The position numbers and the translations under genes were made by a program. The notes below the pieces were generated by a model. That model saw only the letters and a program-made list of their open reading frames with translations. It was not told the origin of the DNA and did not search any database. From Caulobacter sp. (lineage in GTDB: Bacteria > Pseudomonadota > Alphaproteobacteria > Caulobacterales > Caulobacteraceae): a stretch of 64,000 nucleotides of DNA. Shown in pieces: positions 40,403 to 55,833 of this stretch (positions are counted from its first letter, which is position 1; every line of letters starts with the position of its first letter). The DNA is taken from contig JAQGIP010000034.1 of the NCBI GenBank assembly GCA_028291055.1, positions 1-64,000 of the forward strand, read 5' to 3'.

Positions 40403-40484
40403 GCTGTTCTCCCTGATCGCGGCGGTGTGGGCCCGCCTGCGATGGCGCGCAAGATCGGCGCGTCAACGGCCAATTGTCAATCTC

Positions 40485-40499
40485 TTGTCTACCTAGGTG
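40485..40499 (+). promoter_or_regulatory. CTAG element copy 1 (TTGTCTACCTAGGTG)
   Basis: This copy matches 12 of 15 bases of TTATATAACTAGGTG. The centre ACCTAGGT is a perfect palindrome. It lies just upstream of the MFS gene (start 40402) and directly after the stop of the next gene. Confidence 0.6.
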
Positions 40500-40505
40500 A
40501 GACTT

Positions 40506-41360
40506 CTAGTCGCCAGTGAAGGCAGGCGGTCGCTTGCCCTTGAAGGCGTTGAGGCCTTCGATGAAGTCGTCACTGGCGAGGGCCTGAAGCACCTCGGCGC
40601 GGGCGGCGTCGACGCTTTCGCGGAAGCTTTGCGAGCGGGCGAGGCGCAACTGGCGCTTGATGATGCGAGCCGAGCGGGGTGAGACTTCCTCGGCCAGTTC
40701 ACGTGCGTAGGCCAGGGCGTGCTCGAGGAGCAGTTCCGGCTCCAGGATGGCGTTGACGAGACCGATGCGGCCGGCTTCCTCCGCACCGACCTTGCGGCCG
40801 GAGAGCAGAATGTCGGCGGCCGCCCCCTCTCCCACCAGGCGGGGGAGGGTGTAGGCAAGGCCCGTCTCGGCCACCAAGCCACGGCGGGAGAAGCTGGCCG
40901 CGAAGAGGGCCGTGCTTGCGGCGAAGCGGATATCGCAGGCGGTGGCGAGCACGAGGCCCAGGCCGGCGCAGGCGCCGTTGACGGCGGCGATCACCGGTTG
41001 CGGACAGGCCATGGGCGACAGGTAGCGGGCGCGGATCTCCACGGGAGCATCGGTGAAGACGTCATAGATCGGGTCCGACTGTCCGGGCAGCGGTGCATTG
41101 AGGGCCGCGCCCTTGGTCTCGGCCAGTTCGTCGAGGCGCTCCAGGTCGGCGCCGGCGCAGAAGGCGCGACCCGCACCGGTGAGCACGATGGCGCGCACGG
41201 CCGGATCAGGCCCCACCCGCGTGATGATCGCGTCATACTGCGCGCCCATCTCCCGGCCGATGGCGTTCAGGCGATCCGGGCGGTTCAGGGTGATGACCGC
41301 GACGCCCTGGCACACCTCGAAGGAAACGAATTCAGCCAAAACGTCCTCAAGAATTGTCAC
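40506..41360 (-). CDS. Enoyl-CoA hydratase/isomerase family protein (isomerase-like)
   Basis: This 284-aa crotonase-fold protein has FCAGADLERL and GACAGLGLVLATACD as oxyanion segments. The hydratase Glu positions are changed to Val and Ser (GLVLA, FAASFSRRG). Instead, an acidic residue occurs in SRRGLVAETGLAYTLPRLVG, where delta3-delta2 isomerases carry their acid, so isomerase activity is more likely than hydration. The start is a GTG. It is divergent from the TetR gene with a CTAG-type element between them. Confidence 0.8.
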   Translation of the reverse strand: MTILEDVLAEFVSFEVCQGVAVITLNRPDRLNAIGREMGAQYDAIITRVGPDPAVRAIVLTGAGRAFCAGADLERLDELAETKGAALNAPLPGQSDPIYDVFTDAPVEIRARYLSPMACPQPVIAAVNGACAGLGLVLATACDIRFAASTALFAASFSRRGLVAETGLAYTLPRLVGEGAAADILLSGRKVGAEEAGRIGLVNAILEPELLLEHALAYARELAEEVSPRSARIIKRQLRLARSQSFRESVDAARAEVLQALASDDFIEGLNAFKGKRPPAFTGD

Positions 41361-41366
41361 AGCAAC

Positions 41367-41381
41367 ATCTACAACTTGGTT
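41367..41381 (+). promoter_or_regulatory. CTAG element copy 2, most divergent copy
   Basis: ATCTACAACTTGGTT matches 10 of 15 positions of the best form and is followed by AGAT, making ATCTA...TAGAT arms over 41367-41385. It lies between the divergent crotonase and TetR genes, where an autoregulatory site would be expected. Confidence 0.5.
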
Positions 41382-41498
41382 AGATATCTGATCTTTGTCA
41401 AAAGTGGCCGGCGGGCGCAGATGCCGGCTTCCGAAATCCGCCCGGCGGGCCTAGGCTAACCTCATGACGGCGCTCGCGATTTCCACGGCCGACAACTG

Positions 41499-42152
41499 AT
41501 GGACGGAGCCGCCCTGCCCGCCCATCGCGAGACCCTGCGCGACGTGCAGAAGCGGCGCACCCGGCGCAAGCTGTTGGCCGCCGGCAAGAGCCATTTCGCC
41601 CATGGCGGCTACATGACCTGCAAGGTGGAAGAGATCGCCGCCGCGGCCGGCGTGAGCCGCGCGGCCTTCTATCTGCACTACAAGAGCAAGGCCGCCCTGC
41701 TGGCCGATCTTCTGATCGACGAGCTGAAATGGCAGCGGCGGCGCTATCGGGCCTTGAAAGCCGAAACGCGGCCGACAGAAGCCCAGCTGATCGCCTGGAT
41801 CGAGAGCTTCGCCCAGGCCTTCGAGGTGGGTCGTGATTCCCTGAGCCTCTTCCTGTTCGCCGCCTCCATCGACCACGAGCTGCAAGCAATCACCTACAGA
41901 AACCGCCAGCAGTTCGTGCTGCTGCTGAGCCGCCAGGTGCCGGCCTTCAGCGTGCTGAACCGCGACGGCAGTATCGACGAGGCGCGCAACGCGGCCCTGC
42001 ACATGCTGCTGTTCGAGCTGGAGCAGGTCTGCCAGCAGGTGGCTCTTGGCTTCTGGCGCACCGATCCGCAGATCGCCTTCCGCACCCTGGCCGGACGTTT
42101 CCTGGCCTTCTGCAAGCCGGTGCGGAAATCGCGCCGAAAGGGTGTGGCCTAG
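41499..42152 (+). CDS. TetR-family regulator, candidate master regulator of module 2
   Basis: This 217-aa regulator has an N-terminal helix-turn-helix with EIAAAAGVSRAAFYLHYKSK near residues 47-66 and an alpha-helical ligand domain. It is divergent from the crotonase at 41360. Its promoter holds one copy of a CTAG-centred element that recurs at five other promoter regions in module 2, so this protein is the simplest candidate to bind them. An acyl-CoA intermediate would be a likely effector. Its stop overlaps that of the convergent MFS gene. Confidence 0.87.
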   Translation: MDGAALPAHRETLRDVQKRRTRRKLLAAGKSHFAHGGYMTCKVEEIAAAAGVSRAAFYLHYKSKAALLADLLIDELKWQRRRYRALKAETRPTEAQLIAWIESFAQAFEVGRDSLSLFLFAASIDHELQAITYRNRQQFVLLLSRQVPAFSVLNRDGSIDEARNAALHMLLFELEQVCQQVALGFWRTDPQIAFRTLAGRFLAFCKPVRKSRRKGVA

Positions 42153-43498
42153 GCCCCTTCCCCCGCCAGCTCGACGGCCCGGCGCATGGGTTTGAGGCCC
42201 AGCCAGAAGGCGATCAGTGCGATGGGGGAGAAGGTCAGGAAGGTCAGGCTCAGGGCCAGGCCGATGCGCTTTTCGTCGTGCAGCACATAGTCTGTGATGA
42301 AGCCGACCGTGGAGGGGCCGAGGGTCATGGCCAACAGGCCCGCGATCATCAGATAGAGGGCGGAGACCCGGCCGCGCAGGGGCGCGGGGGTGACCAGCTG
42401 AATGGCGGAAGCGCCAATGGCGGCCATGTTCATGGCTACCGCACCGATGGCGATGAGGGCGAAGAACAGCAGCGGAGACGGGGCGACAAAGGCTAAGCCG
42501 GCGGAGACGGCGAGGGCCGCGGTCGCCCACAGGTAGAAGCGGAAATGGGCGTCGGTGACGCCACGCCGCTGCAGCATGTCGACCATGCGGCCGCTGAACA
42601 GGAAGCTGATCGAGCCGGTGACGACGCTGAACCCGGCCAGGATCAGGCCGACCTTGGGAATGGGCCAGCCGAAGGTGCGGTTGAGGAAGGTCGGGGTCCA
42701 GGCGAGGTTGGCATAGGCCATGGCCATGACGCTGGCGAAACCGATGACGTGACAGGCGAAATAGCCCCGGCGAGTGGCGATGAAGGCGAAGAGGTCGCGC
42801 CAGCTTCCGCCGTCGCCGGCCTTGCCCGCGCCCCGCGCCGGTTCGGGAATGATGAAGACGAGGAAGGCGATCGGAATACCGGGAAGACCGGTGGCCAGGA
42901 AGGCGGCCTGCCAGACGCTCAAATGGCCGAGCAGTGGCACGGTTACCCCGTGCGCCGCCCATAGCACGACCAGGGCGCCCATGCCGAGGGAGGCGCCGGA
43001 GCCGATCAGGGCGCCGATGGAATAGACGGAGAGGGCGAAGGTGAGCCGCTTCCTGGGGAAGAGGTCGCTGAGTATGGAATAGGCGGCCGGCGCGAGGGCC
43101 GCCTCGCCCATGCCGACCAGGAAGCGGGCGGCGAGGAGTTGGGGGAAGGTCTGGGCGAGGCCGCAGGCGCTGGCCGCCAGGGCCCAAATGATGACGCCAC
43201 CGAATATCACCCAGCGACGTGGAAGGCGGTCGGCGGCGAAGCCCAGAGGCAGGCCGCAGATCGAATAGAGGAGGGCGAAGGAGAAGCCCTGCAGCAGGCT
43301 GATCTGGAAGTCGTTGATGCCGAGGTCATGCTTGATCGGCTTGACCAGCAGGGCAATCACCTGCCGATCGATGAAGGCCAGCCCATAGAGAATGAGCAGC
43401 ACTCCGACCGCCGCCCAGGCGGGCCCAGGACCAGGCCGGCCCGCCCACTCATCGGCGGCGGGCGCCGTGCCCGCCCATTCACTGCCTCGCCGAGCCAT
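42149..43498 (-). CDS. MFS transporter
   Basis: This 449-aa inner-membrane carrier is a paralogue of the MFS protein at 39065-40402. It shares DRQVIALLVKPIKHDL and GFAADRLPRRW with it and has about 12 hydrophobic segments. The first ~25 residues are a Gly/Ala/Pro-rich cytoplasmic tail. It lies 58 bases downstream of a TonB receptor on the same strand, so the two probably act together in outer- and inner-membrane transport. It overlaps the end of the TetR gene by 4 bases. Confidence 0.87.
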   Translation of the reverse strand: MARRGSEWAGTAPAADEWAGRPGPGPAWAAVGVLLILYGLAFIDRQVIALLVKPIKHDLGINDFQISLLQGFSFALLYSICGLPLGFAADRLPRRWVIFGGVIIWALAASACGLAQTFPQLLAARFLVGMGEAALAPAAYSILSDLFPRKRLTFALSVYSIGALIGSGASLGMGALVVLWAAHGVTVPLLGHLSVWQAAFLATGLPGIPIAFLVFIIPEPARGAGKAGDGGSWRDLFAFIATRRGYFACHVIGFASVMAMAYANLAWTPTFLNRTFGWPIPKVGLILAGFSVVTGSISFLFSGRMVDMLQRRGVTDAHFRFYLWATAALAVSAGLAFVAPSPLLFFALIAIGAVAMNMAAIGASAIQLVTPAPLRGRVSALYLMIAGLLAMTLGPSTVGFITDYVLHDEKRIGLALSLTFLTFSPIALIAFWLGLKPMRRAVELAGEGA

Positions 43499-43556
43499 TT
43501 TGGAAACTCCGTCGGGCGCGGCAGTAAGGCCGCGCCCGCACTTGTCAGAAGACAGA

Positions 43557-45773
43557 CTAGAACTTCACCCCGACGCGCAGCCCGTAGGTGCGCGGCGCGG
43601 CGTAACGCTCGAAGCGAGCGGCCGTGCCGTAGAGGATCACGCCTGTGCCCGGGCTGCGCAGTGGCGAAGAGTTGATGATCTGGGTCACGGCCAGTTCATC
43701 GGTGAGGTTCTGACCATAGGCCTCCACGAACCAGCCGTTGTCACCTTCGTAACGGACTGTCGCGTTGGCGATCCAGAACGGATCGGAGGCGTAGATCGGG
43801 TTTTCGAACACCGTGAAGTAGGTGCGCGAGCGATAGGCGGCGTCGGCGTGCACGGTGAGCTTGCCCGGCAAAGAGACCGGCACCGTGTAATCGCCATAGA
43901 TGTTGGCGGTCAGTTCCGGCGCCCGCGGCAGGCGGTTGCCCTCGACATTGAACATCGGCCGGTCGGCAGGATTGGTGGCCGTACAGGACCCTTGCAGCGG
44001 ATCGCAGAAGATGGCCGAGCCGAACTCGGTATGCTCCCAGGAGGCTCCCATTCCGACCTTCAGGTGGTCGGTCACCGCCAGGTCGCCATCGAAGTCGAGG
44101 CCCCATAGCTTGGCCGTGCCGCCGTTGGTGACGATCGGGCTGATCAGGCCGCCAATGGTCAGGTACTGCAGCACCTGGATGTTCTTGTAGTCGTAATAGA
44201 AGCCCGCCAGGCTGACGCGGGCGCGGCCATCGAACAGCTTGGCCTTCACGCCCGCCTCGTAGGACCAGATCTTCTCCGGCGAGAAGCTGTTGGTGACCAC
44301 GTCGGTGTTGAAGCCGCCGCTCTTGAAGCCGCTGGTGGCGGTCGCATAGACGAGCAAGCCCGCCTGCGGACGCCATTCCAGGCCGATCCTAGGCGAGGTG
44401 GAGCTGTATTCCGCGCCGTTAAGGCCGCTGGCGATCGGGCCTGCGATCTGCACGATCTGGTAGCGCTTCTTCTCCTGCGAATAGCGCACGCCGCCGACCA
44501 GCTTTAGCTGATCGGTGATGCTCCAGCCGAAGTCGCCGTAGACGGACCAGGCGTCGGTGCGCCCGAAGCGGTCGGAATAGAGCAGGTGGTTGGCGAGGTT
44601 GGGGCCCAGCTGGCGCTTGTTCTCGGTGGCGTCCTCTCGAAAGAAGTTGACGCCGATGATGGCGCTGAACGGCTTGGAGGCGTCCGTCGCCAGGTAGGTC
44701 TCGTGATAGTAGGAGGCGGACTCCACCAGGCTGCCGATCGCGCCGACACCGTTGGGGAAGTAGGTCCCCGGGACCGGCACTTGGTCGCTGTCCAGAACGA
44801 TGGGACCGACGTTAAACTTTCGGAAGCTGGTGACCGAGGTCAGCTTGCCGATGCCCAAATTGGCATGGACGGTGAGCGACGCACCCCGGTCCTTCATCGG
44901 CTCGGCGTTGTTGAGGTCGTAGTACACGGCCCGCGGATCGGCGGTGTAATAGCCTGGGTTACCCGCGTAGTAGACCGAGGTCGATGGGCGCAACTTCAGG
45001 ATGTCGCTGGTGTGCTGGGAGGTGTAGTCGGCGCGCAGCACGAGATCGACGTTGTCGGTGGGGAAGAACTTCAGCGCCCCGCGCACCGCCACCATCTGGT
45101 TGCCGTCCAGCTTGGTGCCGAGGAACAGGTTGTCGGTATAGCCCTCGTGGCCCTGGGCCTGGAATGATATCCGCCCGGCCACCTTGTCACCGACCAGGGG
45201 CCCGGTGACGCCGACGCGCACACTGTAGGCCTTGTAGTTGCCCACCGAAGCGTCCGCCTTGCCGGAGAAGTTGAGGCTGGGATCGGCCGAGACCACGCTG
45301 ATCGCGCCGCCGGTGGCGTTGCGCCCGTAGAGGGTGGCCTGCGGACCCTTGAGCACCTCGACCCGCTCAATATCGTTGAAGCCCTGAGCGGCCTGGATGA
45401 CGTTGGGGATGTAGACGCCGTCGACATAGGTGGCGACGCTGTTGGAAACGGCGATGCCCTGCAGGTTGGAGCCGACGCCGCGGATGTAGACCTGGGTCTG
45501 CAGGCCGAGGTCCTGGGAAATCAGCACGCCCGGAGTCTGGTATTGCAGGGTCATGGGGCCGTTGACGCCGGCCCGATCCAGCTTCTCGGCGCTGACAACG
45601 CTGATGGCGGCGGCGGTGTTCTGCACCGTCGATTCGCGGCGCATGCCGGTGATAACCACTTCGCCGACCGTAGCGCCGTCGTCCTTCGGAGCATCATCGG
45701 CCCATGCGGGAACCGCGCTCGCGGCCATCGCCAGGACACTGGCGGCCGCCAGCCATTTTACCTTGCTGAACAC
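43557..45773 (-). CDS. TonB-dependent outer-membrane receptor
   Basis: This 738-aa receptor has a signal peptide (MFSKVKWLAAASVLAMAASA, ending at AWA), a TonB-box-like VGEVVITGMRRESTVQ, plug motifs (LYGRNATGGAISVVS), and a barrel ending in Phe (LRVGVKF). The start codon is GTG behind GGGGAGAAG. It is divergent from an AMP-forming ligase with a CTAG-type element between the two starts, and upstream of the MFS gene. It most likely imports the acid degraded by module 2. Confidence 0.92.
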   Translation of the reverse strand: MFSKVKWLAAASVLAMAASAVPAWADDAPKDDGATVGEVVITGMRRESTVQNTAAAISVVSAEKLDRAGVNGPMTLQYQTPGVLISQDLGLQTQVYIRGVGSNLQGIAVSNSVATYVDGVYIPNVIQAAQGFNDIERVEVLKGPQATLYGRNATGGAISVVSADPSLNFSGKADASVGNYKAYSVRVGVTGPLVGDKVAGRISFQAQGHEGYTDNLFLGTKLDGNQMVAVRGALKFFPTDNVDLVLRADYTSQHTSDILKLRPSTSVYYAGNPGYYTADPRAVYYDLNNAEPMKDRGASLTVHANLGIGKLTSVTSFRKFNVGPIVLDSDQVPVPGTYFPNGVGAIGSLVESASYYHETYLATDASKPFSAIIGVNFFREDATENKRQLGPNLANHLLYSDRFGRTDAWSVYGDFGWSITDQLKLVGGVRYSQEKKRYQIVQIAGPIASGLNGAEYSSTSPRIGLEWRPQAGLLVYATATSGFKSGGFNTDVVTNSFSPEKIWSYEAGVKAKLFDGRARVSLAGFYYDYKNIQVLQYLTIGGLISPIVTNGGTAKLWGLDFDGDLAVTDHLKVGMGASWEHTEFGSAIFCDPLQGSCTATNPADRPMFNVEGNRLPRAPELTANIYGDYTVPVSLPGKLTVHADAAYRSRTYFTVFENPIYASDPFWIANATVRYEGDNGWFVEAYGQNLTDELAVTQIINSSPLRSPGTGVILYGTAARFERYAAPRTYGLRVGVKF

Positions 45774-45901
45774 GTCTTCTCCCCTTCTCGCTGCTTAGGC
45801 AGTTTTGCCGGAGAATTGGGACTCAATAGACACGGCGTCAAGTGAGATTGCCGCGCTTTGGCCTTTTCCCAACCCTCGGGATCGCCTATGTGCTGTCTGA
45901 C

Positions 45902-45916
45902 TTATATAACTAGGTG
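45902..45916 (+). promoter_or_regulatory. CTAG element copy 3 (TTATATAACTAGGTG)
   Basis: This copy is the reference form of the element. It is identical, on the opposite strand, to the copy at 55787-55801. It lies 26 bases before the ligase start and about 130 bases from the divergent TonB receptor start. Confidence 0.7.
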
Positions 45917-45941
45917 TAACTCCAAACATCGGGGAATTGCA

Positions 45942-47477
45942 ATGGCCGGAAATCAGAGGGCGGTGTCGTTCGCACCCCGGGCTGGGGATTTGATCCCAAC
46001 GGGCACGCTTTTGACTTTGCAGGCGAAACGGGGGCCGGAGCGCCCGGCGCTGACCTTCGAGGGCCGCACCTGGAGCTATGGAGAGCTGGAGGCCAACGCC
46101 AACCGCAAGGCCCGCCAGCTGGCGGAGATGGGGGTCGGCGAAGGCGACTTCGTCACCATCGGATTGCCGAATGGGCCGGAGTTCCATGAGGTCACGTTCG
46201 CGGCCTGGAAGCTGGGCGCCATCCCCGCGCCGGTGAGCCACAAGCTACCCGACATCGAACTGCGGGCCATCGTGGAGCTGGCCAATCCGAAGGTGGTGGT
46301 CGGGTTTGAACCGGACCGGGTTCCTGGCCTTGCGGCCCTATCCGCCGGATCGGCGCCCGACCCGCGCTTGTCCGGCGCGCCCCTGCCCGAGCGGCTGGCC
46401 AAATACTGGAAGGCGACGACCAGCGGTGGCTCCACCGGCCGGCCCAAGGTCATCGTCGACCACCGCCCGGCCGCCTTCGCCATCGACGCGCCGGCCCTGG
46501 GCATGACGGTCGATGACGTCATCCTCAACCCCGCGCCCCTCTATCACAACGCCCCCTTCGGCATCACCCACATGGCCCTGGGCTGGGGCAGTCATGTAGT
46601 CGAGATGAGCCGCTTTTCGTCGGCCGGCGCCCTGGCGCTGATCGAGCAGCACCGCATCAAATGGGCCTACCTGGTGCCCACCATGATGAACCGCATCTGG
46701 GCCTTGCCGGCGCAGGAGCGGGAGGCCTTCGACGTCTCCAGCCTGGAAATGATTCTGCACATGGCCGCCGCCTGTCCGGTGTGGCTGAAGGAAGCGTGGA
46801 TCGAGTGGCTGGGACCGGAGGCGGTGTGGGAACTCTATGCCGGCACCGAGGGCATGGGCGGCACAGTGATCAGCGGCCGCGAGTGGCTGGCGCACAAGGG
46901 CTCGGTCGGCCAGATTCCGCTAGGAGCCAACGTCAAGATCGTCGGTGACGACGGGACGGCCTGCCCGCCAGGCGAGGTGGGCGAAATCTACTTCCTGCCG
47001 CCCTCGGGCAAGGGCTCGACCTACCATTACCTGGGCTCGGAGGCCCGCTCCATGGACGACTGGGAGAGCTATGGCGACATGGGCTGGGTCGATGCCGACA
47101 ACTACCTCTACCTCGCCGACCGGCGCACCGACCTGATCATTTCCGGCGGCTCCAACATCTATCCCGCCGAGGTCGAGGCCGCCCTCGATGCCCACCCGAC
47201 GGTCGGGTCCAGCGTGGTGGTCGGCCTGCCCGACGACGACCTCGGCCACCGGGTCCACGCCATCATCGAGCTGCGCCCCGGAGCCGAGGCGCCGAGCGCC
47301 GGCGACCTGCTGGCCTTCGCCGCCGAACGCCTGGCGCGCTACAAGCTGCCCCACACCTGGGACGTCGTGACCGAGCCCCTCCGCGACGACGCCGGCAAGG
47401 TGCGGCGCACGGCGCTGCGGGATGAACGGGCGGAGCGGGCGAAGGCGGGCGAAGTGTTCGCGGCCTTCAGGGGGTAG
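45942..47477 (+). CDS. AMP-forming acyl-CoA ligase, bile-acid-CoA-ligase-like
   Basis: This 511-aa ligase has all core motifs: TTSGGSTGRPKVI (ATP loop), YAGTEGMGGT, YGDMGWVDADNYLYLADRR, ISGGSNIYPAEVEA, and the catalytic Lys in DDAGKVRR. The SGGSTG form of the loop is one I associate with bile-acid-CoA-ligase-type enzymes rather than long-chain FadD, but this is from memory. It starts at ATG 45942 after GGGGAATTGC. It is divergent from the TonB receptor and controlled by the same intergenic CTAG element. Confidence 0.82.
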   Translation: MAGNQRAVSFAPRAGDLIPTGTLLTLQAKRGPERPALTFEGRTWSYGELEANANRKARQLAEMGVGEGDFVTIGLPNGPEFHEVTFAAWKLGAIPAPVSHKLPDIELRAIVELANPKVVVGFEPDRVPGLAALSAGSAPDPRLSGAPLPERLAKYWKATTSGGSTGRPKVIVDHRPAAFAIDAPALGMTVDDVILNPAPLYHNAPFGITHMALGWGSHVVEMSRFSSAGALALIEQHRIKWAYLVPTMMNRIWALPAQEREAFDVSSLEMILHMAAACPVWLKEAWIEWLGPEAVWELYAGTEGMGGTVISGREWLAHKGSVGQIPLGANVKIVGDDGTACPPGEVGEIYFLPPSGKGSTYHYLGSEARSMDDWESYGDMGWVDADNYLYLADRRTDLIISGGSNIYPAEVEAALDAHPTVGSSVVVGLPDDDLGHRVHAIIELRPGAEAPSAGDLLAFAAERLARYKLPHTWDVVTEPLRDDAGKVRRTALRDERAERAKAGEVFAAFRG

Positions 47478-47495
47478 CAGCGGCCTTGCGCCCCC

Positions 47496-48353
47496 TCAGC
47501 GGAGACCGAAGAGCGTCCGCGCTCTCGCCACCTCACGCGCTCCTTGCAGCCGCCCGGCCTCCGCCGCGGGCTTGCGGGTGGCCGGGTCGAGCGCGCCCGG
47601 CGCCATGGTGCGCAGGCTGGCCTCGTCGGCGGAGATGACGACCACCTCGGCGCCCTGCACCTCCAGCCTGGCGATGTCGGGCGCTAGGGCCGCGCTGGTC
47701 AGGCGTCCCATCGGCGACAGGATCAGCACCGCCTTCGATCCAGCAGCGAGATGCGCGTTTTCGGCCGTGCGCCAGACGCCGCCGTCGATATAGCGCCGCC
47801 CGCCGATCGGCATGACCGGCCACACGCCCGGCACGGCGCAGCTCGCCGCGATCACATCCGCCAGGGGTATGCCGCTGGTGGCGGTGAAGACGCAAAGTTC
47901 CTGGCTGTCCGCATCGACGGCTGTGATCGAGAGCGGCTTTGTGGGCCAAGCCTCGTCCGGCAAGGCGAGGCGCGCGACGATGTCGGCGCGGCGTTCGGCG
48001 CTGCTGATCGTCTCGGCTTTAAGGGCCAGTTCGCAAAGCGCGCGGACCTTCTCTCGCGGGTCGCTCCAGGAGCGCTGCATAAGACCGACCATGGCGTCGG
48101 CGGCGCCCGGCGGCGGCGCTCTCTCCGGAGTCTGTTCTGCCCGGTCGGCCTGGCGCCGGAACAGCGCCTCGGTCGACAGGCTGCTCGACAGATGGCTGCT
48201 CACCACGGCCCCAGCGGATGTGCCGACGAAGGCGGTCGCTTGGCGCACGTCGAGGCCGGCGTCCGCCAGGCCCGTCACCAGGCCAGTCATCCAGGCGACG
48301 CCCCAGACGCCGCCGCCGCCACACACCAGGGTCAGATCGTGGCCAGCCGACAT
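47496..48353 (-). CDS. Patatin-like phospholipase/esterase
   Basis: This 285-aa patatin-fold serine hydrolase has the oxyanion loop CGGGGVWG, the nucleophile elbow GTSAG and the catalytic-dyad Asp in DGGVW. It would deacylate a lipid or ester. The ATG at 48353 has GAGG at better spacing than the ATG at 48356. It lies 16 bases behind the crotonase and is the last gene of the ligase-crotonase-patatin unit. It converges on the ligase gene at 45942-47477. Confidence 0.83.
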   Translation of the reverse strand: MSAGHDLTLVCGGGGVWGVAWMTGLVTGLADAGLDVRQATAFVGTSAGAVVSSHLSSSLSTEALFRRQADRAEQTPERAPPPGAADAMVGLMQRSWSDPREKVRALCELALKAETISSAERRADIVARLALPDEAWPTKPLSITAVDADSQELCVFTATSGIPLADVIAASCAVPGVWPVMPIGGRRYIDGGVWRTAENAHLAAGSKAVLILSPMGRLTSAALAPDIARLEVQGAEVVVISADEASLRTMAPGALDPATRKPAAEAGRLQGAREVARARTLFGLR

Positions 48354-48369
48354 CATCGCCTCATTCCGT

Positions 48370-49152
48370 TCATTCAGGGCTGCTCTGCAGATGGCTTAGC
48401 GCCGCCTTGCGCGCCTTGAACATGGTCACGAAGGCCTGCGTCTCACGGCGAAGGATGGCGTTGGCGTCGGCCTCGGCGGCGTTGTCGCGCAGCAGGCCCT
48501 TGGTCAGCTTCATCTGTAGGGCAGGGTAGCCGGCCATCTGAGCCGCCAGGGCGATGGCCTCGTCCAACAGGTCTTTGTCCGAGCAGACACGGGTGATGAG
48601 ACCGATGGCCAGGGCTTCAGCGGCATCGAGGGTCCGGGCCGTCAGACAGATGTCGAGGGCGCGGCCAAGGCCGACGAGCCGGGGCAGCAGGCCCGTGCAG
48701 CCGATCTCCGGCATCACACCTAGCTTCAGAAACGGGAAGGCATACGTCGAGGACGCCGAGCCCATGCGGATGTCGGCGGCCAGGATCTGAGTCGCGCCGG
48801 CCCCGATGGCGGCTCCCGCTACGGCGGCGATCACCGGCTTGGAGGCGGCCAGCAGGTGCAGCCAGCTTTCATCCTGCGCCATCGATAGGGTGGCGATGTT
48901 GACCACCTTGCCGGTCACCGGATCGCGGGGCTCCGGCGGGGCCTTGAAATCGACGCCCGAGCAGAACACCGGGCCGGCGTTGGTGATGACAATGGCGCCG
49001 ATCGCATCGTTCGCGTTGGCCTCCCCGATGGCCGCGACGATTTCGCGGTACATGGGCACGGTCCAGGCGTTGCGGCGCTCCTGGCGGTCATAAGTGATGA
49101 CGGCGACCGGCCCCCTCGTCTCGTAGCGGATCGTCTCGAACTCAGCCGGCAC
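48370..49152 (-). CDS. Enoyl-CoA hydratase/isomerase family protein
   Basis: This 260-aa crotonase-fold protein has FCSGVDFKAP and GAAIGAGATQILAADIRMG as oxyanion segments. The usual hydratase Glu positions are Thr and Phe (GATQI, YAFPFLKLG). A Glu in LGVMPEIGCTGLLPRLVG occupies the isomerase acid position. It is best called isomerase-like. It starts with GTG, 11 bases inside the end of the upstream ligase gene, so translation is coupled. Confidence 0.82.
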   Translation of the reverse strand: MPAEFETIRYETRGPVAVITYDRQERRNAWTVPMYREIVAAIGEANANDAIGAIVITNAGPVFCSGVDFKAPPEPRDPVTGKVVNIATLSMAQDESWLHLLAASKPVIAAVAGAAIGAGATQILAADIRMGSASSTYAFPFLKLGVMPEIGCTGLLPRLVGLGRALDICLTARTLDAAEALAIGLITRVCSDKDLLDEAIALAAQMAGYPALQMKLTKGLLRDNAAEADANAILRRETQAFVTMFKARKAALSHLQSSPE

Positions 49153-50728
49153 GGAGCATCTCCCGGAGCATCGGCTTCAGCACCTTGCCGGCGGCGTTGC
49201 GCGGCAGCTCCTCGATCAGCACGACCTTTTCCGGCGTCTTCTGGCGCGCGACCCCGCTGGCCTTGAAGTGGGCAGAGACCTTCTCCTGGCAGAGCCCCGC
49301 CGCCGGGTCGGCGACGATAAAGGCGCAGACCTTTTCGCCCAGGGTCGGGTGGGGCATGCCGACCACGGCGGCTTCCTTGACGCCGGGCAGGGTCATCAGG
49401 ATGTCCTCCACCTCGCGCGACGCGATGTTCTCGCCGCCGCGAATGATGATGTCTTTCTTGCGATCGGTGATGGCCAGGTAGCCCTCGGCGTCGAGGCGAC
49501 CGATATCGCCGGTGCGCAACCAGCCGCCCTCGACGAGGACGCCGTCATTCAAGGCCGGGTCGAAATAGCCCAGGAAGCGCTCCGGCCCGCGGCTGAGGAT
49601 TTCCCCTTCGCCACCTGGAGCGACATCGTGGCCCTCGTCATCGACGATGCGGACCTCCACGCCCGGGCAGAGCCGCCCGTCCGTTCCCAGGCGCTTTTCC
49701 AGGGGATCGTCGGGGCCGCCGCGCGAGACGGTGGGGTGTTCAGAGAGCCCGTAGGAGCGGTAGGTGCGCAGGCCCATGGCCTGGCAGCGGGCGATCAGGG
49801 CCGGCGGGATCATGGTGGCGCCGGCCAGGTAGTCGGTGAGGCTGGACAGGTCATTGCCGGCAGCCTCGGCTGCGTCGAGCAGGGACGTTAGGTGGAAGGG
49901 AGTGCCGGACGTGCCGCTGATCCGATGTGCTTCGATCAGGCGCGCGGCCTCGGGAGCATCCCAACGCTCCATGAGCACCGACGATCGCCCCATCAGCCAG
50001 AAGCGGCCCAGGCCCAGGACACCCGCCACATGCCCCGGGGGCCAGGGGGAGAGGGAGACCTCGTCCGGATCCCGCTCGGGCGCGGCCATCAGTTCGGCCA
50101 GCAGGGTGGCGTGACTGTGTTGTACGCCCTTGGGGTCAGACGTGGTGCCGGAGGTGTAGATCAGCAGGGCCAGATCGCCGGGCGATCCTGCGGTCAGCGT
50201 TTCCAGGGGCGGGTGGGCGGCCAACGCGTCCCAGGCGATATCGCCCGCCGGCGCGCGTCCAACGACGATGTGCTTGAGGTCGGGGAGGCCTTCGCGCAGG
50301 TCCGCCACTCGCTCGATATAGTTGGCCCCACGCCAGCAGTCCGGGGTGACGATGGCTTTGGCCCGCGACTGGCGCAGGATGTAGTCCACCTCGCTTTTGC
50401 CGTAGATGTGGACGATCGGCAGCGCCACGGCGCCGAGCAGGGCCAGGGCCGCGTGGGCGACGACGGTTTCCAGCCAGTTGGGCGTCTGGACGGCGACAAT
50501 GTCGCCGGGCCCGATCTCCTCAGCGCTCAGACCCGCGGCCACACGGCGCGCCCGCTCATGGACCTCGGCGAGCGTGGCATTGGCCGGCCGAATATCGGAG
50601 ATGATGCTGACCCGCGCACCCGGCCGCGCCGCCACGGCGTCGGCGAAGGCCTGCGCCAACGTCTTGCCGGCAAGCAGACCCTCGGCCCGCCATCGCGCCT
50701 GGACCGCCTCGGGAGCCTCGAATGCCAT
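49142..50728 (-). CDS. AMP-forming acyl-CoA ligase
   Basis: This 528-aa adenylate-forming ligase has intact motifs: LLIYTSGTTSDPKGVQHSHA (ATP loop), YRSYGLSEHPTVS, WLRTGDIGRLDAEGYL, KKDIIIRGGENIASREVE, and Lys in LPRNAAGKVLKP. The sequence layout is like cyclohexanecarboxylate- or FadD3-type ligases, but the substrate is unknown. I choose ATG 50728 because GAGGGAAC precedes it. The crotonase gene overlaps its end. It is divergent from the crotonase at 50834 with a CTAG-type element in the gap. Confidence 0.85.
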   Translation of the reverse strand: MAFEAPEAVQARWRAEGLLAGKTLAQAFADAVAARPGARVSIISDIRPANATLAEVHERARRVAAGLSAEEIGPGDIVAVQTPNWLETVVAHAALALLGAVALPIVHIYGKSEVDYILRQSRAKAIVTPDCWRGANYIERVADLREGLPDLKHIVVGRAPAGDIAWDALAAHPPLETLTAGSPGDLALLIYTSGTTSDPKGVQHSHATLLAELMAAPERDPDEVSLSPWPPGHVAGVLGLGRFWLMGRSSVLMERWDAPEAARLIEAHRISGTSGTPFHLTSLLDAAEAAGNDLSSLTDYLAGATMIPPALIARCQAMGLRTYRSYGLSEHPTVSRGGPDDPLEKRLGTDGRLCPGVEVRIVDDEGHDVAPGGEGEILSRGPERFLGYFDPALNDGVLVEGGWLRTGDIGRLDAEGYLAITDRKKDIIIRGGENIASREVEDILMTLPGVKEAAVVGMPHPTLGEKVCAFIVADPAAGLCQEKVSAHFKASGVARQKTPEKVVLIEELPRNAAGKVLKPMLREMLRAG

Positions 50729-50779
50729 GCGTTCCCTCATCCTGCGCGACCGTTCACAATGGCCGTAGCGCGCTCATAG

Positions 50780-50794
50780 TTATTACACTAGGTT
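50780..50794 (+). promoter_or_regulatory. CTAG element copy 4 (TTATTACACTAGGTT)
   Basis: This copy matches 11 of 15 positions of the reference form. It lies in the 105-base divergent gap between the ligase (start 50728) and the crotonase (start 50834), and is about equidistant from both. Confidence 0.6.
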
Positions 50795-50833
50795 ATCGAT
50801 CTCAAGCGACGTGAGGGTGCGGCGGAGGAAGAC

Positions 50834-51625
50834 ATGAGCGGCTACGAAACCCTGCTGTTCGAGGTCGGCGACGACCATGTGGCGACGGTGACCATCAACC
50901 GGCCCGAAGCGATGAACAGCTTCACCGCCCAAATGATCGACGAGTTCGCCGCCGTCTGGAAGGCCGTGGCCGCCGACGATGCTGTCCACGCCGTGGTCCT
51001 GCGCGCCGCGCCGGGCCGCGCCTTCTGCACCGGCGTCGATGTGAAGAACGCCGGCAATGTCATGGGCTCGGACAATATCTGGAGCGCCAGCGATCCGGGC
51101 GACAGGCTGGGGCCCAAGCAGAACCGTTGCTGGAAGCCGGTGGTCTGCGCCGTGCACGGGCTGGCGGCCGGCGGCGCCTTCTACTGGATCAACGAGAGCG
51201 ACATCGTCATCTGCTCCGACGACGCCCAGTTCTTCGACCCGCATGTGACCTACGGCATGACCGCGGCCCTGGAGCCCATCGGCCTGACCTATCGCCTTCC
51301 CCTGGGCGACGTGCTGCGCATGGCCCTGCTCGGCAATGACGAGCGCATCGGCGCGCAGACGGCCCTGCGCCTTGGCCTGGTCAGCGAGGTAACGGCCCGG
51401 GACGACCTGTGGACCCGCGCCCATGCCCTGGCCGCCTTGATCGCCGCCAAGCCGCCGGCCGCCACGCAAGGCACCGTGCGCGCCATCTGGGAATCCCTGG
51501 ACATGCCCCGCTCGGTGGCCCTGCAGACGGCGCTGAAATACTGCCAGCTGGGCAATCCCGTGGGCACGGCGCAGGTCGACCGGGCCAGCCTGATGGCAGG
51601 GGCCAAGTCATTCACCGTGCGATAA
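50834..51625 (+). CDS. Enoyl-CoA hydratase/isomerase family protein lacking the Glu pair
   Basis: This 263-aa crotonase-fold protein has FCTGVDVKNAG and HGLAAGGAFYWINESD as oxyanion segments. Hydratase Glu residues are absent: the positions read GAFYW and FFDPHVTYGM. The pattern resembles the module-1 crotonase at 2857-3693 (both have GMT-x2-x2-E after the strand), so the two may do the same unusual reaction in the two modules. It is divergent from the ligase and upstream of the GntR gene by 73 bases. Confidence 0.78.
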   Translation: MSGYETLLFEVGDDHVATVTINRPEAMNSFTAQMIDEFAAVWKAVAADDAVHAVVLRAAPGRAFCTGVDVKNAGNVMGSDNIWSASDPGDRLGPKQNRCWKPVVCAVHGLAAGGAFYWINESDIVICSDDAQFFDPHVTYGMTAALEPIGLTYRLPLGDVLRMALLGNDERIGAQTALRLGLVSEVTARDDLWTRAHALAALIAAKPPAATQGTVRAIWESLDMPRSVALQTALKYCQLGNPVGTAQVDRASLMAGAKSFTVR

Positions 51626-51698
51626 GCCGCCTCCGGGTGCGGCGGATGCATTGAGGCCGGGACTCGGCTAGTTGAGAGCTTAGACTTTTGGGGACGGC

Positions 51699-52514
51699 AT
51701 GAAGAAACCCACTTCCCGCGCGGCGACTTCCTCCAGGCCGGTGACCCTGACCCCCGCGCCGGAAGTTCGCATCCGCACGCCCAAGACCGCCGAGCTGGTG
51801 GCCGACCATATCCGCGGCCTGATCCTGCGCGGCGAGATCAAGGAAGGCGGCTACCTGCAGCCGGAGCTGCAGCTGATGGAGACCTTCTCCGTCTCCCGCC
51901 CCACCCTGCGCGAAGCCTTCCGCATCCTCGAGAACGAGGACTTCATCTCCGTGGTGCGCGGTTCGCGCAGCGGCGCGCGGGTGCATCTGCCCAAGTACGA
52001 CAAGGTGGCCCGCTACGCGACCTTCGTCCTGCAGGGCCAGAGGGCGGCGGTGAAGGACATCTACGACGCTCGCGAGATCATAGAGCCGGCCATGGTCGCG
52101 GCCCTGGCCCAACGCCATGACGACGGGCAGATCCTGGCCCTGCGCGAGGCCATCCAGGCCGGCTATGACGCGCTGGACACAGGCAACCGCCGGGCCGCCT
52201 CGGTGGCCGTGGCCTTCATCCACAAGGTGATCGTCGAACAGTATGGCAACAAGTCCCTGGCCCTGTTCGCCAACATGCTGCAGCACATCGTCGAGCAGCA
52301 TCAGGCCGGCGTCGGCGAGGGCGATACCGACAGCGAGCCCAACTATCGCAAGCGGGTTTCCGCCGGCATCAAGTCGATGACCAAGCTGGTCGATTTCATC
52401 GAGGCCGGCGACGCGGAAGGCGCCGCCGAGCACTGGCGCCTGCACCTGAAGAACGCCAACAGCCGCTGGCTGAGCGGTCATGACCGGACGACGCTGATCG
52501 ACCTGCTGGGCTAA
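51699..52514 (+). CDS. GntR-family regulator (FCD type)
   Basis: This 271-aa regulator has a ~30-residue basic N-terminal arm, then a winged helix with LMETFSVSRPTLREAFRILE near residues 67-86 and an FCD ligand domain (VAVAFIHKVIVEQYGNKSL, EHWRLHLKNA). It sits between a crotonase and the first acyl-CoA dehydrogenase pair. GntR-FCD proteins often respond to organic acids or acyl-CoA. It is a second candidate for control of module 2 besides the TetR protein. It has no CTAG element of its own. Confidence 0.87.
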   Translation: MKKPTSRAATSSRPVTLTPAPEVRIRTPKTAELVADHIRGLILRGEIKEGGYLQPELQLMETFSVSRPTLREAFRILENEDFISVVRGSRSGARVHLPKYDKVARYATFVLQGQRAAVKDIYDAREIIEPAMVAALAQRHDDGQILALREAIQAGYDALDTGNRRAASVAVAFIHKVIVEQYGNKSLALFANMLQHIVEQHQAGVGEGDTDSEPNYRKRVSAGIKSMTKLVDFIEAGDAEGAAEHWRLHLKNANSRWLSGHDRTTLIDLLG

Positions 52515-52521
52515 GGTTACT

Positions 52522-52536
52522 TGTCTAACTAGGTAG
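52522..52536 (+). promoter_or_regulatory. CTAG element copy 5 (TTGTCTAACTAGGTA)
   Basis: This copy matches 12 of 15 positions and extends into the near-perfect dyad GTCTAACTAGGTAGAC at 52524-52539 (14 of 16 positions symmetrical). It is 34 bases before the acyl-CoA dehydrogenase start, inside the likely core promoter, and shows the dyad symmetry best. Confidence 0.68.
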
Positions 52537-52570
52537 ACGTTGTAATGTGCTTTCAACCAAGAGGAAGCGC

Positions 52571-53677
52571 ATGGATTTCGATCTGTCCGACGAGCAGAAG
52601 ATGCTCGCCGAGGAAACTCGCAGACTCCTGAGCGACCGCGCTTCGGCAAACCGCCTGCGCGTGCTGGCCGACGCCGGCGCGGCCTGGGACGAAGGGCTGT
52701 GGAGCGACGTCGCCGCCATGGGGCTGCTGGGCGCGGCCATCCCGGAAGAGCTGGGCGGCGTGGGCCTGGGTGAGATCGACGTCTGCGTCATCGCAGGCGA
52801 GATGGGCCGTGGGCCGGCCCCCCTGCCCTTCCTGGGAACCGTGCTGGCCGCCGACGCCATCCGCCTGGCCGGCTCCGACGCCCAGAAGACGGAGTGGCTG
52901 CCCAAGCTGGCCTCCGGCGAAACCGTGGCCGCCTATGCCTGGAACGAGGGCCGGGGCGCCTTCCATCCCCGCCGCATGGCCGCCGCTGTAAAGGCTGGAC
53001 GGATCAACGGTCGCAAAGCCCCGGTCGCGGACGCCGGGCTTGCCAAGATCGCCATCGTCGCCGCCTTGGAGAACGGTGAGCCGGGCCTTTTCCTGGTCAG
53101 CCTCGGCGACGCTTCGGTGAGCCCTATGAAGGGCTTCGACCTATTGCAGAAGCAGAGCGCGGTGACCTTCGACGGCGCAGCCGCTGAGCGCCTTCCCGGC
53201 GCCTCTGAGGCCTTCATCGAGGCCATGCAGGACCGCGCCGCCATATACACCGCCTTCGCCCAGATCGGCGGGGCTGAGGCCTGCCTCTACATGGCCCGCG
53301 ACTACGCCATGGGCCGCAAGACCTTCGGCCGGCCCATCGCCGGCTACCAGGCCATCAAGCACAAGCTGGCCGAGGTGTTGGTGGAGATCGAGTTGGCCCG
53401 CTCCAACGCCTACTTCGCCGCCTGGGCCCTCGCCAACGACGCGCCGGAACTGAAGACCGCCGCCGCCACCGCGCGCCTGTCAGCCACCACGGCCTATGAC
53501 CTGGCGAGCCGCGAAAACCTGCAGGTGCATGGCGGCTTCGGCTACACCTGGGAGGCCGACTGCAACTTCCATTTCCGCCGCGCGCGGCTGCTTAGCGCCT
53601 TTCTCGGCGGGCCCGACGTCTGGAGCGCGCGCCTGATCATGGCGCTGCAAGCCGCCAACGCGCCGCTGGCCGCCTAG
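52571..53677 (+). CDS. Acyl-CoA dehydrogenase, short subunit of a probable heteromeric pair
   Basis: This 368-aa acyl-CoA dehydrogenase-fold protein begins MDFDLSDEQKMLAEETRRLL and has the C-terminal NLQVHGGFGYTWEADCNFHF. It is shorter than usual, with a reduced middle domain and no SEPxxGSD loop. That fits the smaller subunit of ChsE1-ChsE2-type alpha2-beta2 dehydrogenases. The full-size partner follows 11 bases later. The start at 52571 follows GAGGAAGCGC. A CTAG-type element lies in the promoter. Confidence 0.85.
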   Translation: MDFDLSDEQKMLAEETRRLLSDRASANRLRVLADAGAAWDEGLWSDVAAMGLLGAAIPEELGGVGLGEIDVCVIAGEMGRGPAPLPFLGTVLAADAIRLAGSDAQKTEWLPKLASGETVAAYAWNEGRGAFHPRRMAAAVKAGRINGRKAPVADAGLAKIAIVAALENGEPGLFLVSLGDASVSPMKGFDLLQKQSAVTFDGAAAERLPGASEAFIEAMQDRAAIYTAFAQIGGAEACLYMARDYAMGRKTFGRPIAGYQAIKHKLAEVLVEIELARSNAYFAAWALANDAPELKTAAATARLSATTAYDLASRENLQVHGGFGYTWEADCNFHFRRARLLSAFLGGPDVWSARLIMALQAANAPLAA

Positions 53678-53688
53678 GGGACAGACCG

Positions 53689-54888
53689 ATGCACTTTGAA
53701 GACACCCCAGAAGAAGCCGCCTTCCGCGCCGAAGCGCGCGATTGGCTGGCCAAGGCCGCTGCCGCCTACGCAAATCCGCCTACCGCGCCCTGGGAAGAGG
53801 CCGAGTTGGTCCGCCTGGGCCGCGCCTGGCAGCGCACCAAGGCCGAGGGCGGCTTCGCCGGCATTCTCTGGCCCCAGGAGATCGGCGGGCGCGGCGGCAC
53901 GCCCATGCAGGCCTCCATCTTCGATGAGGAAGAGCACGCCTACAACATCCCGACCGGCGTCTTCATCACCATCGGCATGAACATGGCCGTGCCCACCATC
54001 CGCCGCCACGGCACGCCGGAGCAGGCCGAGCGCTACACCCGCCCAACTCTGTTGGGCGAGATGACCTGGTGCCAGCTTTTCTCCGAACCCGCCGCCGGGT
54101 CGGACCTGGCCAACCTGCGCACCAAGGCCGCGCAGCGGCAGGACGGAAGCTGGCTGATCAACGGTCAGAAGGTGTGGTCCTCCTGGGCCCACCATGCCGA
54201 CTACGCCATCCTGCTGACCCGTACTGACCCGTCCGTCGCCAAGCACAAGGGCCTGACCTTCTTCGTCCTCGACATGAAGACGCCCGGCATCACCATCCGA
54301 CCGATCCGCCAGATCAGCGGCAAGAGCGACTTCAACGAGGTCTTCCTCGAAAACGTGGTCATCCCGGACGCCAACCGCATCGGCAAGGTCGGCGAGGGCT
54401 GGGCCTGCGCCATGACGACCCTGATGAGCGAGCGCGCCGGCTCACGCGGCGGCGAGAGCGACCTCGACGTTGCCACGGTCATCGAAGCGCTACGCGGGAC
54501 CGATGCCCTGGCCGACGGCGCGGCCCAGGTGAAGCTCGCCCGCTGGTGGACCGTCGAGCAGGGCATCCAGAACTTCCGCCACCGCCTGACCACCCGGATG
54601 AGCAAGGGCGAGCCCCTCGGCGCCGAGGCGGCCCTGGTCAAGCTGGCCTACGCAAGGAAGTTGCAGGATATCGCCGCCTTCGCCATGGACGTGGAGGGCT
54701 ACGAAGGCGTGGCCGGCGACAGCCCCCTGCGCGAACAGGCCGAGGCCGCCTACCAGTGGGGCGCGGTGATGCGCATCGCTGGCGGGGCCGATGAAATCCT
54801 CAAGAACCAACTCTCCGAGCGGGTGTTGGGGATGCCCGGCGAAATCCGCGCCGACAAGGACATCCCCTTCGACCAGCTGGAGGCCTGA
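53689..54888 (+). CDS. Acyl-CoA dehydrogenase, long subunit of a probable heteromeric pair
   Basis: This 399-aa protein has the SEPAAGSDLANLRTKA loop, INGQKVWSSWAHHADYAIL, TDPSVAKHKGLTFFVLDM and the C-terminal ILKNQLSERVLGMPGEIR. These are typical of the FadE28/ChsE-like group that acts on large, often steroid-type, acyl-CoA esters. It is 11 bases behind the shorter dehydrogenase gene and most likely forms a heterotetramer with its product. It converges on the SDR gene at 54895. Confidence 0.87.
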   Translation: MHFEDTPEEAAFRAEARDWLAKAAAAYANPPTAPWEEAELVRLGRAWQRTKAEGGFAGILWPQEIGGRGGTPMQASIFDEEEHAYNIPTGVFITIGMNMAVPTIRRHGTPEQAERYTRPTLLGEMTWCQLFSEPAAGSDLANLRTKAAQRQDGSWLINGQKVWSSWAHHADYAILLTRTDPSVAKHKGLTFFVLDMKTPGITIRPIRQISGKSDFNEVFLENVVIPDANRIGKVGEGWACAMTTLMSERAGSRGGESDLDVATVIEALRGTDALADGAAQVKLARWWTVEQGIQNFRHRLTTRMSKGEPLGAEAALVKLAYARKLQDIAAFAMDVEGYEGVAGDSPLREQAEAAYQWGAVMRIAGGADEILKNQLSERVLGMPGEIRADKDIPFDQLEA

Positions 54889-54894
54889 GGCTTC

Positions 54895-55677
54895 CTACCG
54901 CGCCGGCATCCGGATCGCCCCGTCCAGACGGACGTCCTCACCGTTGAAGTAGCTGTTGGTGACCATGTGCAGCGCCAGGGCGGCGAACTCCCCGGCGTGG
55001 CCCAGGCGCTTGGGAAAGGGCACGGAGGCGGAGAGGCCGGCCAGGACCTGGGGCGGCACGCCGCGCATGGGCGGGGTGTCCATGATGCCCGGCAGGATGG
55101 TGTTGATGCGGATGCCCTCGCCCATCAGGTCACGGGCGACGTTGAGGGTCATGCCGACGATACCGGCTTTAGACGAGGAATAGGCCACCTGCCCGACCTG
55201 GCCCTCCTCGGCCGCGACAGAGGCGGTGTTGACGATAGCGCCGCGCTCGCCGTCGGCCAGCGGCTCCAGGCTCATCATTCCAGCTGCGCATTTGGAGATC
55301 ATCCGGAAGGTGCCGATCAGGTTGATCTGCACGACGCGCTCGAAGTCCTCCATTGGGAATGACTTGATCTCGCCGGTGGTCTTGTCGCGGCTGGCGGTCT
55401 TGCCGCCCTTGCCGCGCCCGGCGCAATTGATCACGACCCGCTCCTGGCCGTTGGCGGCGCGGGCCTTTTCCAGCCCGGCCAGCACCTGCTCGTCGCTGGT
55501 GATGTCGACCAGGCAGAAGACGGCGCCCAACTCGGCGGCGACCGCCTCGCCCGCCTCCGGGTTCATGTCGAAAATGGCCACCTTTACGCCCTCGGCGCGC
55601 AGGGCCTCGACCGTGGCCTTGCCCAGGCCTGAGGCGCCGCCGGTGACGATCGCGGAGACGGTGCTGTCGAGTTTCAT
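54895..55677 (-). CDS. SDR, 3-hydroxyacyl-CoA dehydrogenase type II (HSD10)-like
   Basis: This 260-aa SDR has TGGASGLGKATVEALRAEG, INCAGRGKGG in place of the usual NNAG, and the catalytic YSSSK. It resembles HSD10-like 3-hydroxyacyl-CoA dehydrogenases, including NSYFNGEDVRLDGAIRM near the C-terminus. It would oxidise a 3-hydroxyacyl-CoA. The start at 55677 follows GAGAGGAAAC. It is divergent from the ligase at 55834 and has two CTAG elements in the shared gap. Confidence 0.83.
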   Translation of the reverse strand: MKLDSTVSAIVTGGASGLGKATVEALRAEGVKVAIFDMNPEAGEAVAAELGAVFCLVDITSDEQVLAGLEKARAANGQERVVINCAGRGKGGKTASRDKTTGEIKSFPMEDFERVVQINLIGTFRMISKCAAGMMSLEPLADGERGAIVNTASVAAEEGQVGQVAYSSSKAGIVGMTLNVARDLMGEGIRINTILPGIMDTPPMRGVPPQVLAGLSASVPFPKRLGHAGEFAALALHMVTNSYFNGEDVRLDGAIRMPAR

Positions 55678-55721
55678 GGCGTTTCCTCTCTCAAGGGCGC
55701 TGCGCCCTATTCTCATGTGAC

Positions 55722-55736
55722 TTATCTTACTAGGTG
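55722..55736 (+). promoter_or_regulatory. CTAG element copy 6 (TTATCTTACTAGGTG)
   Basis: This copy matches 13 of 15 positions of the reference form and lies 44 bases from the SDR start in the 156-base divergent gap. Confidence 0.65.
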
Positions 55737-55786
55737 CTCATTCTCGGGCTGGCAATCTGGACATGTTTTTCATCTTGCACTTCGTC

Positions 55787-55801
55787 CACCTAGTTATATA
55801 A
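55787..55801 (-). promoter_or_regulatory. CTAG element copy 7 (exact, inverted)
   Basis: CACCTAGTTATATAA is the exact reverse complement of the copy at 45902-45916. It lies 32 bases before the ligase start at 55834, close to the position copy 3 has before its own ligase gene. Confidence 0.7.
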
Positions 55802-55833
55802 CTCGCCCCAACAACAGGTTCGAGGAACGCCCC

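Follow-up and report, generated by a model that had tools for sequence, protein, structure and literature searches.

The DNA analysed here, referred to as the window, is a stretch of 64,000 nucleotides from Caulobacter sp. (assembly GCA_028291055.1, contig JAQGIP010000034.1; C59:1-64000); the whole genome comprises 4.99 Mb on 154 contigs. Seven copies of a CTAG-containing sequence lie between positions 40482 and 55804 in a cluster of acyl-CoA catabolic genes. They are very probably the operators of the FCD-type GntR protein encoded at 51699-52514 on the forward strand, which would act as a local, probably autoregulatory repressor. In a set of 398 genomes of the order, taken from a larger group and searched with an operator profile (matches at E ≤0.3, at most 19 candidates scored per genome), at least two matches were found in 9 of the 12 genomes with a homologue of this GntR versus none of the 386 without one (Fisher 3e-16; the 12 rows are not independent by descent). 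The initial annotation of the window had named a TetR-family protein as the simplest candidate and this GntR as the alternative; co-occurrence across genomes selected the alternative. It had also proposed one operator common to the promoters of this gene module, which was borne out, and therefore a single regulator is probable.

The proposed operator and its seven places

The motif was learned from DNA upstream of GntR homologues with the window excluded, so that the sites of the window were not the starting point. Seventy-nine homologue loci were fetched (from the best 80 of 479 candidate stretches encoding a relative), and searches of the order and the genus, with the own genome left out, added 14 and 4 more, for a total of 97. 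Of the 97, 25 carried a CTAG word in the stretch of up to 450 bases before the GntR gene (three of the 25 are second copies of the same genome). Examples come from bins or strains carrying the names Rudaea (L127), Parasphingopyxis (L076 and L088), Altererythrobacter (L123 and L129), and Nocardia (L147). Palindromic expectation-maximisation on 88 deduplicated upstream regions returned one motif in about two thirds of the regions, with a likelihood ratio of 223 versus 25 to 36 in four shuffled sets. This 18-bp family motif, TAGTTAACTA, has GT and AC boxes two bases apart and thus contains the palindromic GT-N2/3-AC operator core of the FadR subfamily. The left box of this motif is degenerate in the copies of the window (TATATAACTA and similar).

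A second overlapping dyad was located exactly 9 bp away in 81 of 140 strong sites (the window being one of the 80 sources of this count) and at 4 bp in 11 of 140. From 108 deduplicated sites of the homologue loci, again with the window excluded, a 27-bp profile was obtained, roughly nACaTATaTAACTAGGTtAnATAtgtn. Its correlation with its own reverse complement was 0.79 at the CTAG centre and at most 0.20 at ten other offsets. The operator is 27 bp long; its three half-sites of 9 bp each are arranged symmetrically around the 9-mer that contains CTAG. A AACTAGGTT-type 9-mer forms the centre, and an ACATA/TATGT-type half-site stands on each side with a spacing of 9 bp; of these parts, the centre and the left flank are the better preserved in most copies of the window. 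Our first model, a dyad of 18 bp with its centre some four bases to the left of CTAG, was discarded as only a sub-dyad of this operator, because the longer odd-width model centres the symmetry on the CTAG 9-mer. Therefore, the symmetry about CTAG that was first read from the window stands, now from a profile built on other genomes.

When the window was scanned with this independent 27-bp model, the seven places proposed earlier took ranks 1 to 7, with scores from 17.9 to 27.2. The next match, an overlap, scored 11.6, and the maximum in 40 simulated third-order Markov windows was 13.6. Outside the seven sites and their overlaps, the best place scored 9.0 (at 6510), in keeping with the earlier statement that module 1, the other gene module of the window, holds no copy. 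With the 18-bp matrix, six of the seven places had sub-sites ranking between 1 and 9, and an Infernal profile built from 75 of the operators matched six places in the window at E ≤0.032. The 15-mer with up to three mismatches occurred 5 times in the window versus a mean of 0.05 and a maximum of 1 in 100 dinucleotide shuffles. Both exact 15-mer copies, at 45902-45916 (+) and 55787-55801 (-), were where they had been reported. The degenerate copies at 41367 (10 of 15 bases) and 50780 (11 of 15), counted by eye, were also correct; the one given as 52522 really starts at 52521, and the 16-base dyad exists at 52523-52538, one base off the claimed 52524-52539.

Genes were defined with a simple purpose-made caller of open reading frames, and likely start codons were chosen by eye. 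Six sites lie 4 to 68 bp upstream of the nearest likely start. The highest score (27.2; genome-wide E of 0.57) belongs to the site at 41364-41390 (-) in the gap between the crotonase gene Crot1 and the TetR gene, 4 to 30 bp before the Crot1 start. The site at 45899-45925 (+), in the divergent gap between the TonB-dependent receptor-like gene TBDR2 and the acyl-CoA ligase-like gene ACS1, scored 26.6 (genome-wide E of 0.073) and lies 17 to 43 bp before the likely ACS1 start at 45942. In the divergent gap between ACS2 and Crot3-GntR, the site at 50777-50803 (+) scored 26.0 (genome-wide E of 0.59). Between GntR and the acyl-CoA dehydrogenase gene ACAD1, the site at 52518-52544 (+) scored 23.8 (genome-wide E of 1.0), 27 to 53 bp before the likely ACAD1 start at 52571. 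Two sites share the gap between the short-chain dehydrogenase gene SDR1 and ACS3. One, at 55719-55745 (+), lies 42 to 68 bp before the likely SDR1 start at 55677 and scored 21.2 (window E of 0.032), and it was not among the genome-wide profile matches; the other, at 55778-55804 (-), lies 30 to 56 bp before the likely ACS3 start at 55834 and scored 27.0 (genome-wide E of 0.077). The seventh, at 40482-40508 (+) and 80 to 106 bp before MFS1, is only a probable operator: it scored 17.9 with the 27-bp model (rank 7) and 7.0 with the 18-bp model (rank 24), and the Infernal profile gave 5.4 bits (E of 3.7, match at 40484). The seven sites had been described as intergenic and directly before catabolic genes. 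This one is the least promoter-like, as its 27-mer overlaps the Crot1 stop codon. The count of six promoter regions was confirmed, with Crot1/TetR, TBDR2/ACS1, ACS2/Crot3, and SDR1/ACS3 divergent and the sites before MFS1 and ACAD1 between tandem genes.

The AT-rich character of the motif, its position mostly 4 to 68 bp before likely starts, and the TATAAC-like words inside it are also what a shared core-promoter element (-10-like TATAAC) or a repeat without a dedicated regulator would offer. Such an element should be spread genome-wide, yet all six Infernal matches at E ≤10 in the own genome fell in the cluster, at five places. In addition, none of the 386 GntR-less genomes of the order showed two matches at E ≤0.3, and dyad symmetry of the kind seen in the 27-bp profile is no promoter feature. 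We give this explanation hardly any credence. A sigma-70 scan gave 1 match versus 1.7 expected.

A degenerate 16-mer with up to three mismatches matched 9 times genome-wide. Four of the matches had 0 or 1 mismatch, and these were all among the 6 in the cluster; the remaining 3, outside it, had 3 mismatches each. The 15-mer with up to three mismatches matched 11 times, with 5 in the cluster, 4 on contig C130, and 1 each on C28 and C50. ACTAGGT words numbered 46, of which 5 were in the cluster and the other 41 within 40 stretches. Three of these stretches exceeded 9 with the 18-bp model (L022, 14.1; L032 on C130, 15.3; L039, 11.1); with the 27-bp model, L022 scored 7.7 and L039 scored 13.2. The apparent sites on C130 reached 19.4 with the 27-bp model and were disregarded as contaminant DNA. 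This contig (L032, G000:C130:1-5195; 29% GC) carries cytochrome b, cox1, and nad-like reading frames, identified by reading, and is on this reading mitochondrial DNA, a eukaryotic contaminant of the bacterial assembly. On contig C37, a place between genes and near a TonB-receptor-like gene (L161 18666-18692, about 122666-122692) scored 18.2 with the 27-bp model, more than the weakest site of the cluster, and is a possible distant member of the regulon.

Co-occurrence of the sites with the GntR gene

In the order, 14 of the 398 genomes had a profile match, nine with at least two and five with one. The association persisted when the own genome and the two that had donated sites to the profile, G145 and G080, were removed: it was then 6 of 9 versus 0 of 386 (p = 2e-11). 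Excluding the four genomes of genus g13, it was 5 of 8 versus 0 of 386 (p = 7e-10), and excluding all of these, 2 of 5 versus 0 of 386 (p = 1e-4). In G046, G080, G145, and G254, all listed matches shared a contig with the GntR gene and spanned 36 to 43 kb. Within the genus, 5 of 75 genomes carry a GntR homologue, and the 3 genomes with a match at E ≤1 all belong to these 5; G433 was added at E ≤3. The only match (E ≤3) in each of G433 and G439 lay about 130 to 165 bp before the aligned GntR sequence (the alignment begins at residue 24); the match in G402 lay 3.9 kb past the end of that sequence.

The TetR-family protein encoded at 41499-42152 (+; Pfam TetR_N) drew attention because one site, the one with the highest 27-bp score, lies between its gene and the divergent Crot1. 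That site is 4 to 30 bp before Crot1 but more than 100 bp before TetR. TetR homologues (E ≤1e-20) were present in 4 of the 398 genomes, and at least two sites were found in 1 of these 4, the own genome, versus 8 of the 394 without (p = 0.09). The three other TetR loci scored at most 2.9 with the 27-bp model, and the genes called in the 79 GntR loci and in seven additional stretches included only one weak partial match to this TetR. Thus, the TetR protein, which shows no co-occurrence with the sites, was rejected on this comparison as the simplest candidate, and that it reads the sites is very improbable. A different TetR-like gene does stand between operators in Henriciella and in G254, so a second regulator is possible in those clusters. 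This small protein (L209 785-1348, -; L211 14780-15346, -), named by reading, had no NCBIfam match at 1e-25 and no BLAST relation to the window TetR at 1e-3.

The other GntR protein encoded in the window (16963-17793, -, module 1) could also read the sites, alone or with the first. Its homologues occur in 4 of the 398 genomes, 3 of which have at least two sites (p = 3e-5), and a 30% relative adjoins an operator in Henriciella. However, all 4 genomes also carry the first GntR, 6 of the 9 genomes with at least two sites lack a homologue of the second at E ≤1e-30, and no operator-like site is near its gene in the window. It was rejected for its weaker co-occurrence with the sites, and a role for it is accordingly highly unlikely.

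Besides the shared descent mentioned above, several points weigh against the GntR at 51699 as the reader of the sites. Three GntR-bearing genomes of the order (G127, G147, and G185) had no profile match, one of the genus (G421) had none at E ≤3, and five genomes without a GntR homologue had one match each; the genus and order profile searches were run with stricter filters. The upstream regions of G046, G254, and g13 had entered the first 18-bp matrix. In the g13 genomes (G008, G092, G102, and G217), which are AT-rich (loci of 37 to 42% GC), the matches were scattered and away from the GntR gene, and AT-richness may help these genomes to score matches. A non-palindromic free search of the same upstream regions preferred a different, GC-rich word, with a likelihood ratio of 330 (width 18) in about one third of the regions. 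The strict consensus AACNTAGTTAACTANGTT had no match in the own genome with up to three mismatches, so the window copies are degenerate. The site at 40482 is weak by Infernal scoring. Finally, homologues of two window genes were mostly without a site: ACS2 (6 of 20) and the aldehyde dehydrogenase w28936 (1 of 16).

In all four g13 genomes, one match lay 23 to 31 bp before the same biotin-carboxylase-like gene, named by reading (L180 in G217, L181 in G092, L187 in G102, and L198 in G008). The regulon of this genus seems to cover other acyl-CoA metabolism.

The proposed regulator and circuit

The proposed regulator, a protein of 271 aa, belongs to the GntR family, FadR subfamily, FCD type, with an N-terminal winged helix and a C-terminal all-helical FCD domain. 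Pfam GntR matched at 45.2 bits (cut-off, 27; E of 7e-12) and FCD at 61.1 bits (cut-off, 24.3; E of 2e-16). The predicted fold had a pLDDT of 85 and a pTM of 0.70, and its best fold matches were solved FCD regulators. The closest solved relative by sequence was NanR of Escherichia coli, also of the FCD type in the FadR subfamily (6on4; E of 2e-20), which was also first in the fold search (E of 2e-9; TM of 0.45 by query length). The NCBIfam NanR model gave 91 bits, below its cut-off of 260, so the protein does not qualify as a NanR orthologue. According to the NanR report, the NanR operator has three GGTATA repeats bound by three dimers and the regulon is local and catabolic, and in both respects NanR resembles the system described here (PMC8012715). 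NanR reads direct repeats, whereas here three half-sites make a 27-bp palindrome, and its effector is sialic acid with zinc (PMC8012715). By eye, two of the NanR zinc ligands (Asp172, His176, His222, and His244) align with histidines invariant in the homologue alignment, and the positions of the other two are hydrophobic in the window protein and in the majority of its homologues.

As described in a survey of FadR-subfamily operators, weaker extra half-sites occur 7 to 12 nt from the centre, on one or both sides, in many groups (PMC4494728). The operators there are palindromes with TKGT/ACMA-like boxes, a feature shared by the 18-bp motif here, with TAGT-TA-ACTA. The extra dyad here is set at exactly 9 bp in the majority of strong sites given above. 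The main text of that paper does not mention Sphingo-, Caulobacter, Phenylobacterium, Novosphingobium, or Frankia. Given the triple repeats of NanR and these accessory half-sites, the three-half-site architecture has precedent.

Another member of the subfamily, gammaproteobacterial FadR, was among the fold matches (5dv5, 1h9g, and 1hw1). It binds acyl-CoA and controls acyl-CoA metabolism, and its operator differs from the one here. Pfam reported only the GntR and FCD domains in the window protein and no FadR-type acyl-CoA effector domain.

What the computation shows is the motif with its symmetry and spacing, how nearly it is confined to the cluster, and that it goes together with this GntR family; physical binding, repression, and the number of dimers are inferred. 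In the effector-free state, a GntR dimer, or two cooperating dimers, would sit just before the start codons and block transcription of the genes for acyl-CoA ligases, acyl-CoA dehydrogenases, crotonases, the hot-dog dehydratase, the short-chain dehydrogenase, and the TonB receptor. The distance of six sites from likely starts would fit a repressor that covers the core promoter. GntR would also block its own Crot3-GntR transcript; autoregulation is likely because the site at 50777 precedes these two genes. A pathway intermediate would then bind the FCD domain and release GntR from the DNA, and from the type of pathway we infer a carboxylic acid or a CoA ester. In general, this is a real and conserved GntR regulon of an ordinary kind, with nothing far from known GntR biology.

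A broader proposal may be worth considering, although we hold it to be doubtful. An unnamed FCD-GntR family, with members in Caulobacterales, in Sphingomonadales, and as far as bins labelled as Acetobacteraceae and Rudaea, might read the 27-bp palindrome of three half-sites by means of two cooperating dimers, with the central 9-mer common to both. With half of the FCD metal site lost, it might sense a bulky CoA ester formed in the P450-linked breakdown of a lipid or terpenoid, and not a small acid bound through a metal, and regulator and operators might move between lineages as one unit.

We recognised no account of this regulon in the open-access literature, judged from search listings. A regulator, an operator, and a target list are now assigned for the catabolic cluster in a form that can be tested at the bench. 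Relatives of this cluster occur in Sphingopyxis, Novosphingobium, Parasphingopyxis, Henriciella, and others. The operators mark genes that belong together and delimit the pathway, and the effector would point to the substrate.

Module genes and probable targets

Crot1 (40506-41360, -) is of the enoyl-CoA hydratase family (Pfam ECH_1). TBDR2 (43557-45773, -) and the divergent ACS1 (45858-47477, +) were named by reading the sequences of their open reading frames. ACS2 (49142-50740, -) matched NCBIfam acyl-CoA ligase families and is divergent from Crot3 (50834-51625, +), a crotonase-fold protein matching enoyl-CoA hydratase families. Crot3 and GntR are separated by a gap of 73 bp with no operator inside and are probably on the same transcript. 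Downstream of GntR are ACAD1 and ACAD2 (52547-54888, +), acyl-CoA dehydrogenases assigned by NCBIfam and by reading, respectively, followed by SDR1 (54895-55716, -; Pfam adh_short). A probable operon of ACS3, the hot-dog dehydratase, Crot4, ACAD3, and ACAD4 (55717-61897, +) follows; ACS3 and the dehydratase were identified by Pfam and the other three were named by reading.

In the 79 homologue loci, 152 sites scored at least 17 versus 1 in one simulated round, and 68 loci had at least one such site. The called intergenic DNA, which makes up 15% of the bases, held 111 of the 152, and the median distance from site centre to start was 30 bp (119 sites with a start in range). Targets were counted as homologues of window genes at ≥45% identity with a site before the gene or its operon. 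A site preceded ACAD3 in 8 of 9 cases, ACS3 in 7 of 8, Crot4 in 6 of 8, the hot-dog dehydratase in 5 of 8, and ACAD4 in 6 of 9, versus 204 of 923 for the other genes of the same loci. Crot3 and SDR1 had 4 of 6 each, GntR 22 of 34, SDR2 19 of 36, MFS2 1 of 1, ACAD2 1 of 3, and ACAD1 1 of 2. For window genes outside the module, the counts were 5 of 11 for w8330, 0 of 4 for w9598, 0 of 2 for w62439, and 0 of 1 each for w17801, w18229, and w27009.

In Henriciella (L208-L210, G145:C102) and G254 (L211, L168, and L212, G254:C22), clusters of about 40 kb or more contain homologues of both window modules, including a lipid-transfer-type thiolase (70%), a ChsH2-like protein, a P450, and an aldehyde dehydrogenase. 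Operators stand before several operons of these united clusters, whereas the module-1 genes of the window have none. This difference suggests rewiring, or the split of one regulon.

Family models and solved structures of the cluster proteins yielded no name for the pathway substrate. The hot-dog dehydratase (427 aa, 57397-58680, +) had only marginal solved relatives and weak NCBIfam matches far below cut-off, and in the clusters where it was seen it is 66 to 73% identical.

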